Positions 4,754 through 26,474 of a stretch of DNA of 33,703 nucleotides are shown in pieces (within the stretch, counting starts at the first letter, position 1; each line of letters opens with the position of its first letter). The notes beneath the pieces were generated by a model. That model saw only the letters and a program-made list of their open reading frames with translations. It did not search any database and had not been told where the DNA came from. The DNA comes from Longimicrobiales bacterium (GTDB lineage Bacteria > Gemmatimonadota > Gemmatimonadetes > Longimicrobiales > RSA9): positions 1-33,703 of the forward strand of contig DASTYK010000003.1 of assembly GCA_035764935.1 (NCBI GenBank), in the 5' to 3' direction. A program made the position numbers and the translations under genes.

Positions 4754-5015
4754 CGGGCGAGACCGCTCACCGGGCGCCTACTGATCGCCCGGTGGCCCGA
4801 TCCATGCCGCCACTTGCTGCGCACGCGTTCATGTGCTAACAACAAGAGAGGACCGTCGCGCCCGTCCGTTACGCCGGCGCAGATGTCCGGCCCTTCCGAA
4901 AGCCCGCCGCTTCCGACCGCCGCGCCTCGCCAGGGGTGTGGACGCCCTGGCCTCCGGCCGGATCGGCTGACGTCTTCCGTCATGCGATGCAGTTGCCCAG
5001 TGCCCGGAGGTTCTC
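4754..5015. other. Intergenic leader region upstream of the plug-like lipoprotein
   Basis: Together with the terminator, this forms a 328-bp gap. It holds a 7-bp hairpin (GCCAGGG at 4929-4935 with CCCTGGC at 4945-4951). Short open frames here have no protein-like composition. I see no convincing -35/-10 pair. The region ends in a strong ribosome binding site, GGAGG at 5006-5010, five bases before the ATG at 5016. Confidence 0.4.
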
Positions 5016-5453
5016 ATGTGTCGGTGCATCAAGCTCGTTGTGGCCGCCGTCTCCTTCGGAACGGCTTTCGGTTGCTCCAGCAATTCGAGCCCGGGCAGTG
5101 CGCCGGAGGCGCGTGAAGAGAGCACCGCCATGGTCATCGATGAGCACGAGCTCGAACATGCCGCGGGAAACGTGCTCAACATCCTGCCGAGTCACGTTGC
5201 CGGCATGCGCATAAAACGAACGGACAGTTGTCCGGAGATCCTGATGCGCGGCACGCGCAGTCTGATGAGCTCCAACGATCCAGTCGTCTACGTTGACGGT
5301 ACGCGAAGCGGAAACACCTGCATCCTCGAGACGCTGGTGCCGAGCGAGATCCATCGTATTGAGGTCTATCCCATGGGCGTTACTCAGCGGCCAGGGTACC
5401 GGAACAGCCCGAATGGCCTGATTCTGGTCTTCATGAAAACATCAGATCTGTAG
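5016..5453 (+). CDS. Small secreted/lipoprotein carrying a TonB-receptor plug-like domain, no barrel
   Basis: A 145-aa protein. Its first 20 residues form a short basic and hydrophobic signal ending TAFGC, a weak lipobox, followed by a Ser/Glu-rich linker. The rest resembles the plug domain of TonB-dependent and SusC-type receptors. It has VLNILPSHVAGMRI, then PEILMRGTRSLMSSNDPVVY, which corresponds to the R-G...P-x-x-Y-V-D-G region, then VPSEIHRIEVYPMG (plug I-x-x-I-E-V-x-x-G) and SPNGLILVFMK (corresponding to xNGVIxIxTK). No beta barrel follows; the gene stops cleanly. The start is fixed by GGAGG five bases upstream. It faces the susD gene across a shared terminator. The plug assignment comes from pattern reading; the function is unknown. 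Confidence 0.8.
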   Translation: MCRCIKLVVAAVSFGTAFGCSSNSSPGSAPEAREESTAMVIDEHELEHAAGNVLNILPSHVAGMRIKRTDSCPEILMRGTRSLMSSNDPVVYVDGTRSGNTCILETLVPSEIHRIEVYPMGVTQRPGYRNSPNGLILVFMKTSDL

Positions 5454-5502: not shown

Positions 5503-5543
5503 ACGCAAAACGCCCCCGGCAGAAATGCCGGGGGCGTTTGCGT
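5503..5543. terminator. Bidirectional intrinsic terminator (plug lipoprotein / susD)
   Basis: The perfect core stem CGCCCCCGGC (5511-5520) with GCCGGGGGCG (5527-5536) has a 6-nt loop. It is flanked by A and T runs that extend the pairing, AAAA at 5507-5510 and TTT at 5537-5539. On either strand the hairpin is followed by T residues, so it can end both the lipoprotein transcript (plus) and the susCD transcript (minus). Confidence 0.85.
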
Positions 5544-5585: not shown

Positions 5586-7031
5586 TCAGTTTACATCCCA
5601 CCACACAGGATCGAACACGGTCAGATCCGCGAACGCCGCGTAGTTGTCCGGATTGTACAGGTTCTCGTTCGGCGAGATCGGCAGCCGTCCCGGGATCTCC
5701 GCTGCGCCATCCGCCGGCGTAAGCACCGGGTGTCCGGTCCGCCGCACCAGCGACCACGCCTCGTTCCCGTTGAGGTAGAGCGCGATCCACTGCTGCGTCC
5801 AGATGCTCTCGAGGCCGTTGTACGTCAGGCCTGCGATGTAGGCATCGATCTCGGCCTGCGGGATGTTGTACTGCTCCATCGAAGCCTCGATGCCCTGCTG
5901 CCAGAGCGACTCGGCGTCGGCCGCAATCCAGCCGCGTTCTGCAGCCTCTGCCTGCAGCAGCAGCACCTCTGCGTACGTGAAGACGAACGCCGGAGCGTCA
6001 GGCTCACGATAATAGGTGCTGATGGGCGAGAAGTGCGGGAAGCCCGCCACCGAGTCCGGATGCGGATTCGTCGGGCTCGGAAGCTCCGTCGCCTCGAAGC
6101 CGTTCGGCAGCCCGTTGTACGTCCCGAGTGCCGGTGCCGGATCCGCGTAGAACGGTAGACGCGGGTCATCGTTGTTCATCAGGGTATCCACCATGGCCTT
6201 GCTCACGGCGAAGTCCGCGAGGGGCCGCGACGTGAAGTGCAGGTGGATCGGGTTACGGCTCGGACCCGTGGCCCCGTACTGGAGCACCGCGTTGTCGGCA
6301 TTGCTCTCGAAGCCGCCGGCAGCATACGCCGCTGCGAACTCGGCCTCAGCGGTGGCGGGAGCGACTTCGGACAGCCGCATTGCGGCCCGCATCCGGAGCG
6401 AGTTGGCGAACTTCGTCCACTTCTCCAGATCACCGTTGTAGAAGAAGTCGCCACCTGCCCAGGACACGCTGGCGGACGGATCGATCTGCGCAACAGCCGC
6501 CTCGAGATTGTCGAAGATGCCGTTGTACACCGTCTCCTGCGAGTCGTAAGCCGGGCTGTTGATCCCCTCGTCAGCCCGCAACGCCTCCGTGTACGGAATG
6601 GAGCCGTACACGTCCGTCAGGATCTGGAACTGCCAGTGCATCAGGATGTTCGATACTGCATCCAGATTCTCGTCACCCGATGCAGCAGCCATGTTGCGCA
6701 GCACGTTGAGGTCTGCGAGCGGGCCGGTGTAGGCACTCTCCCAGACGCCATTGAGCTGAGCGATGCGCGGGAGGTAATCGTCCTCCGTCCCGTATGTCGG
6801 CTGTGCCAGGTGCTGCGACCACAGATTCGACAGGTACATGCCGAACCACTCGCTGTGCGAGCCGTAGGCACCACCCACCGCATCCATGATGGCATTACCG
6901 AGCAGGTTGGCCGGAGGCACATCCTCCGGCGCATTGGGATTCTGGTTGATCTCGGTCAGGCCTTCGTCGCACGCACCGAGCACTGCGAACAGTGCCAGTG
7001 CGGGAACGGCCTTGAGGAATCTCTTTGTCAT
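5586..7031 (-). CDS. SusD/RagB-family nutrient-binding outer-membrane lipoprotein
   Basis: Surface lipoprotein of about 481 aa that forms the lid over a SusC channel. The N-terminus MTKRFLKAVPALALFAVLGAC is a clear lipoprotein signal with lipobox LGAC, followed by EINQNPNAPEDVPP, typical of the SusD-like family. A TPR-like helical body follows (SEWFGMYLSNLWSQHLAQP, TDVYGSIPYTEAL). The ATG at 7031 is chosen because AAGGGAAAAGG precedes it and the signal peptide begins there; the longer frame to 7100 adds only a basic non-signal segment. It lies 28 bp downstream of susC in the same operon. No glycosidase, peptidase or regulator is next to it, so the imported nutrient cannot be predicted. Confidence 0.92.
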   Translation of the reverse strand: MTKRFLKAVPALALFAVLGACDEGLTEINQNPNAPEDVPPANLLGNAIMDAVGGAYGSHSEWFGMYLSNLWSQHLAQPTYGTEDDYLPRIAQLNGVWESAYTGPLADLNVLRNMAAASGDENLDAVSNILMHWQFQILTDVYGSIPYTEALRADEGINSPAYDSQETVYNGIFDNLEAAVAQIDPSASVSWAGGDFFYNGDLEKWTKFANSLRMRAAMRLSEVAPATAEAEFAAAYAAGGFESNADNAVLQYGATGPSRNPIHLHFTSRPLADFAVSKAMVDTLMNNDDPRLPFYADPAPALGTYNGLPNGFEATELPSPTNPHPDSVAGFPHFSPISTYYREPDAPAFVFTYAEVLLLQAEAAERGWIAADAESLWQQGIEASMEQYNIPQAEIDAYIAGLTYNGLESIWTQQWIALYLNGNEAWSLVRRTGHPVLTPADGAAEIPGRLPISPNENLYNPDNYAAFADLTVFDPVWWDVN

Positions 7032-7059: not shown

Positions 7060-10000
7060 TTACGGCCGCACGGTGACGGTGAAGCCGATGCTGCGCGCAC
7101 TTGGCATCGCTCCGTACTCGAAGCCCTGTGCGTTGCTCGCGTCGTATGCCGTTTCCGGATCGACGTCGAGGTCTTCGTGCACGCCCCACGTCGCCAGGTT
7201 ACGCCCGATCAGACCGAGCTGGATACCTGACAGGCTGAGGCGGCTCGCCCACTCCTGCGGCACATCGAACGTCAGCGAGAGCTGACGCAGCTTCACGTAG
7301 CTAGCATCGAACGTGTGCGCCTCCGTCGTCGCGTAGTAGCCGCTGCTGTGATACAGCGCCTGCGCACTCGTCACGATGTCGTTCGGGACGGTGTCACCGT
7401 CTTCCGTCACCTTCACACCGTCGAAGATGATGCCATTGATCGTGCCGTCCTCTTCCACACAGGGGGGCAGGTTGGCACCCGCCTGTCCGGGAAGCAGGCA
7501 GCGACCCTCTGCGGTCGGCTCGAGCACGCCGGCGTACATGCCGAACATGTGCGTAACCGAATAGATGTCACCACCCTGGCGGATGTCGACCAGGAAGTTC
7601 AGATCGAAATTCTTGTAGCTGAAGTCGTTGTTCCAGCCGCCCAGCCAGTCGGGGTTGTAGTTGCCGACAACACCCTGGGGGCCGAGCAGCGGACGACCGT
7701 TGCTACCGACGACGATGCGGCCCTGCGAGTCACGGACATACGTGTAACCGAAGATCTGGCCGTAAGGCTCACCTTCACGTGCCCAGATCGAGCCGTACCA
7801 CTCGCCACCGAGCGACAGGCCCTCGACGCCCTCTGCCAGCTCCACGACCGTGTTGTCGTTCTTCGAGAAGCTGAACGAGGAGCGCCACCGGAAGTCCTCG
7901 GTCTGCACGGGGACCACATTCAGCAGCAGCTCGACGCCCTTGTTCTGGGTCGTGCCGGCGTTGACGATCCGCGAGGTGTAGCCCGTAGCGCGCGAGATCG
8001 AGACCGGCATGATCAGGTCGAACGTCTTGGTGTTGTAGTACGTCGCGTCCAGCCCCAGGCGTCCGCCCAGGAAGCCGAGCTCCGCGCCGAACTCCCACGA
8101 CTCCGTCGTCTCCGGCTCCAGCTCCGAGTTCGGAATCTGGTTGGGCTCGGCGAACGTCGGGAACCCGTTGAAGATGTCGCTGGCCGCAAACGCGCCGCGC
8201 AGCTGGTACGGGTCGGTGTCGTTGCCGACGCGCGCCCAGCTCGCGCGCAGCTTGCCGTAGTCCATCCAGTCCTGGTTCATGTTGAACGCATCCGAGAAGA
8301 CGAAGCTTCCCGACACGGACGGATAGAAGTACGAGCGGTTGTCTTCCGGCAGCGTGGAGGACCAGTCGTTACGACCGGTCACCGTCAGGAACGCATAGTT
8401 GTTGTAGCCGACTTCCACCTGCCCGAGCAGGCTGTTCACCCGCTTGCGCGAGGTGTTGTCCGTCGAGATCGGCGCAACCGCCGCGTTCTCGACCGAGAAG
8501 ATCCACGGCGTGATCAGGTCCGTCACCGTGTTTCCGCTCGTTACCCGACGGTAATCGCGACGCGCCGCACCAAGGAACCCGGTGACCGAAACCGGCCCCT
8601 CGAGATCCGGGGCGATGTTCGCGAGCACCTGGCTGTTCACTTCACGGAAGCCGATGTCGGAGTTGACCAGACCACCGGTCGCGCCGATCGGCGAACCGTC
8701 CGAGAGCGTCACGCCGAGCAGGTTCGGTGCATACGAACGCAGCCGATTCTCGTCGTACCAGTCCATGCCGGTCATGCCGCTCAGCGACAGCCAGCTGGTC
8801 AGGTCGTAGTCGACCGTGACATTACCGATGAGTCGGTTACGGTCCTGCGTGCTCCCGTTCGCGAGCTGAAGGTAGTACGGATTCGTGTGGTAGCTGCTGT
8901 TCCAGCTGTACGGGAGACCGTTCTCTGCACGGATGGAATCGAAGTTCGCCTCGAGGTCACGCATGTCGACCTGGCGGCCGAACCAGATCATCTGCGACAG
9001 CGGGTTCGTGCTGCCGTAGCCCATGCCGGGGCGTCCGTTCGCATCCGTCTTCGAGTACTGCACGGACGTCGAAGCCCTGAGCCGATCCGTCACGTCCACG
9101 CCACCGCTCAGACCGAGCGTCAGGCGGTCCATGTCGAAGCCAGGAATCATGCCTTCCTGGTCGAAGCGCGTCGCAGAAAAGCGCAGGTTGTACGTGTCGC
9201 CCGACTTCGCGAACGCGGCGTTCGTCGTGAGCGTCTGACCGCCCTTGAAGAAGTACTCGACGTTGTCAGGATTCGAGACCCACGGCGTCGGCTGACGCAC
9301 ACCGTCCGCTCCGACAGGGCTGTTGAACTGCGGGATCATGAGCCCGGCGTCGAGCGGTGGGCCCCAGCTCTCGTCCACGCCATCGTTGGTGCCGCCACCC
9401 TCACCATCGACGTATGCGAACTGGCCGTTGTAGCCCTGCCCGTATGCGTTCTGGTACTTCGGCAGCATTGTCGGGTCTTCCCACGTGACCTGCTGACTGA
9501 CGGTCACCTGGCCCTGGCCCGCTGCCAGACCCGACTTGGTCGTAATGATGACCGCGCCATTGGCGGCACGCGAGCCGTACAGTGCCGCGGCATTCGGGCC
9601 CTTCAGCACCGTGATCGATGCGACGTTGTTCGGATCGACGTCCGCTGCCGCGTTGCCCCAGTTCAGGTCGTCGGAGAACACGCGCGACGAGCTGTTGTCG
9701 ATCGGCACACCGTCGACGATGAACAGCGGCTGGTTGTTGCCAGTGATCGAGTTCGCGCCGCGGATCACGATACGGGACGAGCCGCCGGGGCTCGCCGCCT
9801 GCGTGATGTTCACACCCGCAACCTGTCCAGCAAGCGCCTGCACGAAGTTCGGCTCGATGGTCGACAGCTCGTCACCACCGATCGTCTCCGTCGCGACACC
9901 GAGCGCAGCCTCCTGCCGCTCGACGCCCAGCGCCGTGACCACGATCCGGTCCAGGCTGACCGCCGTCTCCTCCAGCGCGAAGTCCGCCGAAACCGCCTCA

Positions 10001-10284
10001 CCCGCCACCACCGTCACGGTCTGGCTCGCCTGGCCATACCCGATGATCTGCACCTGCACGGTGTGCTGCCCCGCAGGCACGTTCAGGATCTGATAACGAC
10101 CCCGCGCGTCCGTCAGGGCACCCAGCCCCGTTTCCCCGATGACCACCTGCGCGCCCGGCAGGGGGCGGGTGGTCGACTGCTCGATCACTGAGCCCGTGAC
10201 CGTGCCTGTCCCCTGGGCTTCCAGCGCCACCGGGGCAAACACCGCCAGGAGCGCAAGCGCGATCCCGCAGCGAAGTGTGTTCAT
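7060..10284 (-). CDS. SusC/RagA-family TonB-linked outer-membrane transporter
   Basis: TonB-dependent channel of about 1074 aa. The signal peptide is near residues 1-24 (MNTLRCGIALALLAVFAPVA...EAQG). A carboxypeptidase-regulatory-like Ig domain follows at roughly 27-110 (TGSVIEQSTTRPLPGAQVVI, LNVPAGQHTVQV). The TonB-box/plug start is IVVTALGVERQEAALG, and the SusC-signature plug reads GSSRIVIRGANSITGNNQPL, then NVASITVLKGPNAAALYGSR and GAVIITTKSG. A long beta barrel ends SIGFTVTVRP. The start at 10284 has AGGAG nine bases upstream. It is the first gene of a two-gene operon with susD. Length and domain order are standard for the family. The substrate is unknown. Confidence 0.95.
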   Translation of the reverse strand: MNTLRCGIALALLAVFAPVALEAQGTGTVTGSVIEQSTTRPLPGAQVVIGETGLGALTDARGRYQILNVPAGQHTVQVQIIGYGQASQTVTVVAGEAVSADFALEETAVSLDRIVVTALGVERQEAALGVATETIGGDELSTIEPNFVQALAGQVAGVNITQAASPGGSSRIVIRGANSITGNNQPLFIVDGVPIDNSSSRVFSDDLNWGNAAADVDPNNVASITVLKGPNAAALYGSRAANGAVIITTKSGLAAGQGQVTVSQQVTWEDPTMLPKYQNAYGQGYNGQFAYVDGEGGGTNDGVDESWGPPLDAGLMIPQFNSPVGADGVRQPTPWVSNPDNVEYFFKGGQTLTTNAAFAKSGDTYNLRFSATRFDQEGMIPGFDMDRLTLGLSGGVDVTDRLRASTSVQYSKTDANGRPGMGYGSTNPLSQMIWFGRQVDMRDLEANFDSIRAENGLPYSWNSSYHTNPYYLQLANGSTQDRNRLIGNVTVDYDLTSWLSLSGMTGMDWYDENRLRSYAPNLLGVTLSDGSPIGATGGLVNSDIGFREVNSQVLANIAPDLEGPVSVTGFLGAARRDYRRVTSGNTVTDLITPWIFSVENAAVAPISTDNTSRKRVNSLLGQVEVGYNNYAFLTVTGRNDWSSTLPEDNRSYFYPSVSGSFVFSDAFNMNQDWMDYGKLRASWARVGNDTDPYQLRGAFAASDIFNGFPTFAEPNQIPNSELEPETTESWEFGAELGFLGGRLGLDATYYNTKTFDLIMPVSISRATGYTSRIVNAGTTQNKGVELLLNVVPVQTEDFRWRSSFSFSKNDNTVVELAEGVEGLSLGGEWYGSIWAREGEPYGQIFGYTYVRDSQGRIVVGSNGRPLLGPQGVVGNYNPDWLGGWNNDFSYKNFDLNFLVDIRQGGDIYSVTHMFGMYAGVLEPTAEGRCLLPGQAGANLPPCVEEDGTINGIIFDGVKVTEDGDTVPNDIVTSAQALYHSSGYYATTEAHTFDASYVKLRQLSLTFDVPQEWASRLSLSGIQLGLIGRNLATWGVHEDLDVDPETAYDASNAQGFEYGAMPSARSIGFTVTVRP

Positions 10285-24440: not shown

Positions 24441-24470
24441 ACACACCAGCTCCCGAACATGGAGTCAGCC

Positions 24471-26474
24471 GTGAACCGATACATCCGTCGCCGCACAGCA
24501 CTCGCCGCCGTTGCCGCGGTGCTTACGTCGTTCGCCGCCGACACGGCTGCAGCGCAGGAGCCCGTCGACACGATTCCGCTGGACAGCCTGGTCGTCACCG
24601 CGACCCGGCAGCCTCTCCCGCGCGACGCCGTGCCCGCTGCGGTCAGCGTGATTGCCGGCGACGAGCTGCGCGCGCGTGGAGAACGCCTGCTCGTGGATGC
24701 ACTGCGCCTCACGCCGGGCACGGCGATGGTGCAGTCCGGGCCGCAGGGGGCGCTTGGCGCCGTCTACCTGCGCGGGGGCGAGAGCGACTACGTGCGCGTG
24801 CTCGTCGACGGCGTGCCCGTGAATCAGCCGGGCGGCTCCTTCGACTTCGCGCACCTGCGCACGGAGGACGTCGAGCGCATCGAGATCGTGCGCGGGCCGG
24901 TCAGCGTGCTGTACGGCTCCGACGCGGTGACCGGCGTGATCCACGTGATCACCCGGCGCGGCACGGGCGCTCCACGCATCACGGCAGCGATCACCGCGGG
25001 CAGGTCGGACCGGGTCGGGCCCGAGGCGGACGGCGCATCCGACGCGCTCGGCTTCGATGCCGGCATTGCCGGCGCGGCCGGCAGCTTCGATTACGCCGCA
25101 ACCGCGGCGCGCTACACGACCGACGGCGCCTACGCCTTCAACAACGACTATCACAACAACAGCGCCAGCGCGCGACTCGGCTGGTCGAACGTGACGAGCG
25201 GCATCCGACTGAACGCACGCTACACGGACGGCGAATACCACTATCCGACCGACGGTTCGGGGGTGTTGTCCGACTACAACGCATTCCGCACGTCGCGGGC
25301 GCTGACGCTCGGCGCGAGCGTCACACACGCGCTGACGCAGCGCACCCGTGCCAGCATCGACGTCGCGCTGCACGATGACGAGGCCGACGAGGACGACGCG
25401 CCCGACTCTGCCGCGGACACGCTCGGCTTCTACGCGTTCCAGGGCACGACGAACGCGCAGCGTCGCAGCATCGACGGCCGCATCGACATGGACGCGGGCA
25501 TCGCGCAGCTCACCGTCGGCGCTGCCGCCGAGGAGCAGGACGGCGACACGTGGTCCAGCAGCATGAGCCAGTTCGGCCCCTGGGCCGATTCCGCCGAGTA
25601 CTCGCGCTCCTCGCGCGCTGCATACGCCCAGGTCGTGTCCACTCCCGTGCAGCGCGTTACGCTGACGGCCGGCAGCCGCATCGACGACGGCGAGTACGGC
25701 ACCTTCGCGACCTGGCGAGCCGGCGTGAGCGTGCGACCCGGCGCGTGGGTCCTGCGCGCCGCTGCCGGCAGCGCGTTCAAGGAGCCGACGTTCTACGAGA
25801 ACTACGCACGCGGTTTCGTCACCGGAAACCCCGACCTCGACCCCGAGCGCTCACTCAGCTACGAGGTCGGCGTCGAGCGCACGCTGTTCCGGGATCGCGC
25901 GCGCATCGCCGCAACGGCGTACACACAGGAGTTCGAGGACCTGATCCAGTACACCAGCACACCGGCCGAGCCCGGCGCGCCCAACTATTTCAACCTCGGC
26001 GCTGCGCGCGCCCGCGGGCTCGAAGTCAGCGCAAACGTTTCACTGCCCGCGAACCTGCGGCTGGACGTCGCATACGACTGGCTGGACACCGAGGTCACAT
26101 CATCGGGCACGGAGGGAGACCTGACGTTCCTCGAGGGGGAGCGCCTGCTCCGCCGCCCCGAGCACCGCATCGCCGGCTCGCTGCAGTGGACCCGCGGCGC
26201 CGCCAGCGCATGGCTCGGCGTCTCGCATGCCGGCGAACGCATCGACCTCGACTTCAGCAATCCCGACGCGCCGAACGGCGAGCGCATCACGCTCGGCGGC
26301 TACACGCTCATCAATTCATCCGCCACGGTGCCGATCACACGCAGCGGCTGGGGCGATGTTGCGGCGACGTTGCGCATCGAGAACGTGCTGGATGAAAGGT
26401 ACGAGGAGGTGCTGGGGTTTCCGGCGCGTGGACGTGCGGTCTTCGTCGGTGCGAAGGTGTCGCTCGGAGGTTGA
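24471..26474 (+). CDS. btuB: TonB-dependent cobalamin receptor
   Basis: Outer-membrane receptor of about 667 aa for vitamin B12. The GTG at 24471 is preferred because GGAG lies six bases upstream and the signal peptide (MNRYIRRRTALAAVAAVLTS...AAAQ) begins there; an ATG at 24459 is the alternative. The TonB box DSLVVTATR is followed by a plug domain (VYLRGGESDYVRVLVDGVPV, VERIEIVRGPVSVLYGSDAV, GVIHVITRRG). A 22-strand-type barrel follows, with the typical FKEPTFYENYARGFVTGNPD and LDPERSLSYEVGVER segment and NVLDERYEEVLGFPARGRAV near the end. It is the last gene of the riboswitch operon, 30 bp after btuD (18 bp if the ATG is used). Its plug is canonical, unlike the orphan plug at 5016. Confidence 0.92.
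   Translation: MNRYIRRRTALAAVAAVLTSFAADTAAAQEPVDTIPLDSLVVTATRQPLPRDAVPAAVSVIAGDELRARGERLLVDALRLTPGTAMVQSGPQGALGAVYLRGGESDYVRVLVDGVPVNQPGGSFDFAHLRTEDVERIEIVRGPVSVLYGSDAVTGVIHVITRRGTGAPRITAAITAGRSDRVGPEADGASDALGFDAGIAGAAGSFDYAATAARYTTDGAYAFNNDYHNNSASARLGWSNVTSGIRLNARYTDGEYHYPTDGSGVLSDYNAFRTSRALTLGASVTHALTQRTRASIDVALHDDEADEDDAPDSAADTLGFYAFQGTTNAQRRSIDGRIDMDAGIAQLTVGAAAEEQDGDTWSSSMSQFGPWADSAEYSRSSRAAYAQVVSTPVQRVTLTAGSRIDDGEYGTFATWRAGVSVRPGAWVLRAAAGSAFKEPTFYENYARGFVTGNPDLDPERSLSYEVGVERTLFRDRARIAATAYTQEFEDLIQYTSTPAEPGAPNYFNLGAARARGLEVSANVSLPANLRLDVAYDWLDTEVTSSGTEGDLTFLEGERLLRRPEHRIAGSLQWTRGAASAWLGVSHAGERIDLDFSNPDAPNGERITLGGYTLINSSATVPITRSGWGDVAATLRIENVLDERYEEVLGFPARGRAVFVGAKVSLGG

Follow-up and report, generated by a model that had tools for sequence, protein, structure and literature searches.

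The window analysed here, comprising 33,703 nucleotides of contig DASTYK010000003.1 from a Longimicrobiales bacterium, carries a small gene that runs tail to tail towards an operon encoding a SusC-SusD pair (Table 1). The product, for which the label MEM is used here (protein and family alike), is predicted to be a TonB-plug lipoprotein without a barrel. Its open reading frame is complete, with an ATG start and with the stop codon immediately after the plug, and the ribosome-binding site GGAGG or a comparable AG-rich site is found at the same position in the MEM homologues listed. The lipobox of the window protein is a loose A-F-G-C, the cysteine itself being invariant among the 23 aligned homologues. 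With its signal peptide and lipobox cysteine, MEM is, as judged from sequence and prediction, exported and lipid-anchored; it would be placed in the periplasmic leaflet of the outer membrane because of the lipobox and the +2 residue, the sole basis for this assignment. The linker varies in length and sequence, and no TonB-box-like segment is conserved in it among the 23 members; likewise, no conserved export signal follows the lipobox cysteine in the family. The motifs RG (residues 78-79), VVYVDG, IHRIEVYPMG and SPNGLILVF are all present, in agreement with the first-pass annotation of this DNA, which had described an exported stand-alone plug with a signal ending in cysteine, its own ribosome-binding site and stop, and no barrel, facing a SusCD operon. 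A second TonB-dependent receptor in the window (24459-26474, forward strand) is an ordinary one with both plug and barrel.

Table 1. Features of the MEM locus, with positions in the window.
Feature	Position	Strand	Evidence
Ribosome-binding site GGAGG	5006-5010	+	5 nt ahead of the MEM ATG; read from sequence
MEM, predicted TonB-plug lipoprotein without barrel, 145 aa	5016-5453	+	ORF, Pfam Plug, 24 intact copies, fold
MEM lipoprotein signal peptide, ending in lipobox Cys20 (codon 5073-5075)	5016-5075	+	Cys20 invariant in 23 aligned members
MEM linker, about residues 21-37, variable, without conserved TonB box	5076-5126	+	Low pLDDT; poor conservation
MEM plug core (predicted), residues 38-145	5127-5450	+	pLDDT >90 over most of 39-145; VIA Z 9.6
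MEM invariant core cysteines Cys72 and Cys102	5229-5231, 5319-5321	+	23-member alignment
GC-rich inverted repeat, probable bidirectional terminator	5503-5543		-37 kcal/mol, z -6.9; between MEM and SusD 3' ends
SusD-like_2 lipoprotein, second gene of the partner operon	5586-7031	-	PF12771, E 3.7e-104; orthologues adjoin MEM homologues
SusC/RagA TonB-dependent transporter, complete with CarboxypepD_reg-like domain, plug and barrel	7060-10284	-	PF13715, PF07715, PF00593; TIGR04056, 603 bits

The assignment of MEM to the plug fold was approached from profiles and from a predicted structure. The Pfam Plug profile (PF07715) matched MEM marginally but above the cut-off, at 24.2 bits against a gathering threshold of 23.9, and it was matched independently by 17 of 23 homologues (E <= 0.01). 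The SusC/RagA model TIGR04056 aligned over its plug part only (E 4.6e-8), and the full-length match including the C-terminal beta-barrel was not obtained, the score of 31.9 bits lying below the cut-off of 368.25. By sequence alone, the MEM family profile reached solved plugs (FyuA, E 3.6e-5), and it matched the plugs of the partner SusC proteins with an E-value of 4e-10. The AlphaFold2 model, for which 23 homologues were used, is of high confidence across most of residues 39-145 (Table 1); the top 50 rows of a Foldseek search with it were all TonB-dependent transporters, and VIA-align gave as the best solved match the plug of the levan SusC (6z9a_B, residues 99-206; Z 9.6 over 102 residues). 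Residues 39-145 are thus predicted, both from profiles and from the model, to adopt the TonB-receptor plug fold; a fold other than a plug, which the first-pass annotation had named as refuting its reading, was not obtained.

A search of 61 related genomes with the single sequence returned eight close homologues, and a single-sequence scan of the genome contigs with MEM returned only general plugs. The profile search of 395 Gemmatimonadota genomes separated 23 genomes, at 109-206 bits, from the next scores of 68 and 51. The 24 intact copies come from six families (f1, f2, f3, f4, f5 and f9), and all of them are barrel-less proteins of 144-160 residues that have the lipobox cysteine and end at the plug, so that plug-only lipoproteins do recur as a family, with none continuing into a barrel. 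Invariant positions of the alignment include Cys20, Cys72, Arg78, Gly95, Cys102, Glu116, Tyr118, Pro119 and Gly134, and a disulfide between the two core cysteines probably staples the fold. The C-terminal consensus VEVYPxGVTxRPGYxxxxxGLILVF stands where ordinary SusC plugs have KGPNAAALYGSRAANG, and the KGPNAAALYGSR motif, invariant in the plugs of the partner SusC proteins, is lost from MEM. Four further copies are degenerate: that of G074 is interrupted by an in-frame TAG, those of G058 and G388:C236 each have an internal deletion, and the frame of the G218 copy is split; a TAA flagged in the G191 copy is the ordinary terminal stop. These decaying copies and the barely sufficient Pfam score are what could be said for a decaying receptor fragment or a chance reading frame, an explanation that is ruled out for practical purposes, as the first-pass annotation had held, by 24 intact homologues from six families, in which start, lipobox, stop and core are all conserved.

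As shown by gene calls and tblastn, the common arrangement is MEM on the forward strand followed tail to tail by SusD and SusC on the reverse strand. Two of the 24 intact copies (G023 and G370) lie at contig ends and were left out; in 21 of the remaining 22 loci MEM converges on a SusD orthologue (identity about 35-47%), and an orthologous SusC (36-51% identity, or a fragment) lies beyond it wherever the contig extends that far. The one exception is G015, in which the SusD orthologue is nearby and on the same strand as MEM. The gap between MEM and SusD is usually 57-132 bp, with another small gene inserted in a few loci, and the genes upstream of MEM are variable. The SusC orthologue is present in 91 of the 395 genomes and in all 22 sampled genomes with an intact MEM. 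The genome with the stop-bearing copy (G074) is without this orthologue, and the SusCD there is unrelated (27% and 24%). Among 16 loci, the distances of MEM correlate with those of SusC (Mantel r 0.85) and SusD (0.83), the value for SusC with SusD being 0.95; shared ancestry contributes to this tracking. The co-occurrence with SusCD for which the first-pass annotation had asked is therefore much stronger than a single locus could show. In the full-length partner SusC proteins compared, the plug and the segment preceding it are intact; MEM is therefore an extra plug and not one half of a split receptor.

Two further observations concern this neighbourhood. A second pair of the same SusCD clade in the genome of the window (G000:C9:10507-15068, locus L145; 46% and 45% identity) has no free plug adjoining and constitutes a natural paralogue control. 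Between MEM and SusD, a family of lipoproteins of 183-189 residues was found in three genomes (L077:4793-5344, L080:3255-3824 and L084:8889-9455).

A bidirectional terminator shared by MEM and susCD had also been claimed from the sequence. The hairpin itself was recovered between the convergent 3' ends, and in the other short-gap loci examined the corresponding gap also contains strong GC-rich hairpins; the hairpin of the window was not listed by a simple terminator scan because its T tracts are short, and its function as a bidirectional terminator is probable, not proven. Since MEM usually has its own convergent transcript outside the operon, its expression need not be coupled to that of susCD.

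MEM is absent from about three quarters of the genomes with this SusC clade. On the clade tree, its presence requires 7-8 changes, compared with 15 under shuffling, and hence it has been lost or gained repeatedly and is not essential for SusCD everywhere. Forty MEM-less loci of the same clade were read, of which 38 extend past the end of SusD and could be tested. In 16 of these 38, a different barrel-less plug protein lies within 1.7 kb downstream of SusD, compared with about one locus expected from control stretches (0.025 per 1.7 kb), a count to be read with the caveat that some of these loci had served as seeds for the profiles used and that the loci are related by descent. These replacement plugs are either type 2 plug lipoproteins (A4) or type 3 proteins combining a CarboxypepD_reg domain with a plug (A5). 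Among the 40 loci, G218 holds a MEM remnant, and in L154 and L156 the match belongs to the next transporter. A type 3 gene (G074:C4:111116-112309, locus L134) directly precedes the stop-bearing MEM copy, beside the non-orthologous SusCD.

The retention of MEM beside one intact SusCD across Gemmatimonadota suggests a part of the importer without earlier description. The reading we favour, tentatively and at slightly less than an even chance, is that MEM, having originated from a SusC-type plug, serves the convergent SusCD as a dedicated accessory lipoprotein, docks at the periplasmic mouth of SusC and stabilises or reseals the pore. Anchored by its lipid in the periplasmic leaflet of the outer membrane and stapled by a probable Cys72-Cys102 disulfide, it would sit beside the native plug, or in its place while TonB displaces the latter, and would complement the TonB-driven gate as a static stopper or clamp; having no TonB box, MEM itself would not be pulled by TonB. 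Counted in favour of the accessory role are the plug fold, the intact barrel-less copies, the convergence with SusD and the tracking of SusC and SusD in the Mantel comparisons, together with the stop-bearing copy beside a non-orthologous SusCD and the replacement plugs in MEM-less loci. The docking on SusC is itself an inference. The absence of the KGPNAAALYGSR motif speaks against a drop-in replacement of the native plug, and with the KGP..LYG motif of ordinary plugs lost, a docking position next to or beneath the native plug is favoured over its simple substitution. Such docking has a precedent in Llp of phage T5, a disulfide-bearing lipoprotein that binds FhuA from the periplasmic side and makes contact with the FhuA plug (PMC9586334).

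The main rival to docking, itself unlikely, is that MEM acts as an assembly factor in a manner similar to LptE for LptD, holding the barrel of SusC while it is folded with the help of BAM and departing when the native plug has taken its place. A lipoprotein with a dedicated barrel partner, strictly co-inherited with SusCD and made from a separate transcript as would suit a sub-stoichiometric helper, fits this role, but SusC is itself equipped with a plug, and MEM is dispensed with by most SusC proteins of the same clade. LptE is a lipoprotein that plugs its partner barrel LptD; it is the only plug of that barrel, whereas the SusC beside MEM has one of its own.

It is rather less likely that the MEM plug serves as a periplasmic cargo receptor, a lipid-anchored pocket that takes over the substrate leaving SusC. 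The plug fold contributes to ligand binding in TonB-dependent transporters, MEM is linked to one transporter clade, and the isolated plug of FepA weakly binds ferric enterobactin, but the same isolated plug is unfolded (PMC11658791), and the apical loop of MEM, from VYVDG to the helix, is much shorter than in SusC plugs and so leaves little pocket. A two-plug SusCD, in which the disulfide-stapled, lipid-anchored second plug would enter or cap the barrel while the TonB-driven plug is pulled out, so that the pore would never be open, and in which free plugs would have diversified into several Gemmatimonadota families, is improbable on our estimate.

Of the roles suggested in the first-pass annotation, a lid or surface anchor would have MEM work with SusD outside the cell. 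Extra surface lipoproteins are frequent in SusCD systems (PMC11658791), but with no conserved export signal after the MEM cysteine, and a plug fold that has no obvious role outside a barrel, we hold this to be distinctly improbable; the data are accommodated at least equally well by docking on the partner SusC. Still harder to credit is a receptor guard that jams SusC from inside against the entry of phage or bacteriocins, like Llp or Cor. It could appeal to a small lipoprotein with a candidate disulfide that adjoins a TonB-dependent transporter, to the Llp precedent and to the patchy occurrence of MEM within the SusC clade, but it is opposed by the long vertical co-inheritance with SusCD, by the cost of a permanent jam, which would deprive the importer of its function, and by the viral contigs, in which a scan found no relative. 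The synteny of MEM is chromosomal, and a phage origin was rejected. The single match in a phage record (MT836283.1, locus L237, filed as 'Bacteriophage sp.') is a full Bacteroidales-type SusC, and the record is probably a mislabelled bacterial contig. A decoy competing for TonB, the remaining earlier suggestion, would make use of the plug fold of TonB clients, but it is very hard to sustain because no TonB box is conserved in MEM.

The plug fold itself is known, and MEM shares with the SusC/RagA plug (PF07715, TIGR04056) the fold and the RG...VYVDG...IEV...G.I core. It differs from that plug in being free-standing and, as predicted, lipid-anchored, without barrel or TonB box, as well as in its two core cysteines, its short apical loop and the lost KGPNAAALYGSR motif. 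The superinfection-exclusion lipoproteins Llp and Cor are small like MEM and act on a TonB-dependent transporter; they are phage-encoded, of about 60 residues and with no plug fold reported, whereas MEM is chromosomal and inherited with the transporter. In the open-access literature, no account was found of a family of barrel-less plug lipoproteins linked to an intact SusCD, which is weak evidence of absence, and the family is apparently undescribed, although some short proteins are already labelled plug-domain-containing in public annotation. Given the unfolded behaviour of the FepA plug in isolation (PMC11658791), the conservation of a free plug that has two invariant cysteines in its core is the more notable. 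It has long been asked how a TonB-dependent transporter can open a large pore and yet not leak, and a free plug inherited with an intact transporter offers a natural test case. MEM would further reveal the plug as a protein module in its own right, with an evolution of its own, and would provide a function for a class of small 'plug domain-containing' proteins, of which an abundant soil phylum has many copies.

Types 2 and 3 resemble MEM in being exported and barrel-less, in having related plug profiles (E 6e-14 and 6e-12, respectively) and in lying sometimes beside the same SusCD clade. Type 2 was found in 136 of 200 genomes; it is mostly borderline to Pfam Plug, with a predicted model that is also plug-like, and unlike MEM it is without the two core cysteines and mostly unlinked to SusCD. 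Type 3, found in 137 of 150 genomes and often ten or more times in each, though some matches may sit in larger proteins, differs in its CarboxypepD_reg domain, the lack of a consistent lipobox and cysteines at other positions. A rule that every free plug adjoins a SusCD was rejected, since, of 40 sampled type 2 loci, only about 8 have a recognised SusC or SusD at a distance of up to about 7 kb (1 of 19 controls). Another barrel-less architecture has a glycine-rich membrane segment, probably of two helices, fused ahead of the type 2 plug; such fusions adjoin MEM at L083:8427-9092, L124:8952-9629 and L127:2961-3833, and one lies beyond SusC at L122:13499-14947. Finally, a TGA is flagged inside the type 3 match beside SusD at G101:C7:142968-143702, G132:C269:805-1548 and G143:C398:26015-26755, and may represent a terminal stop, decay or an unusual reading.
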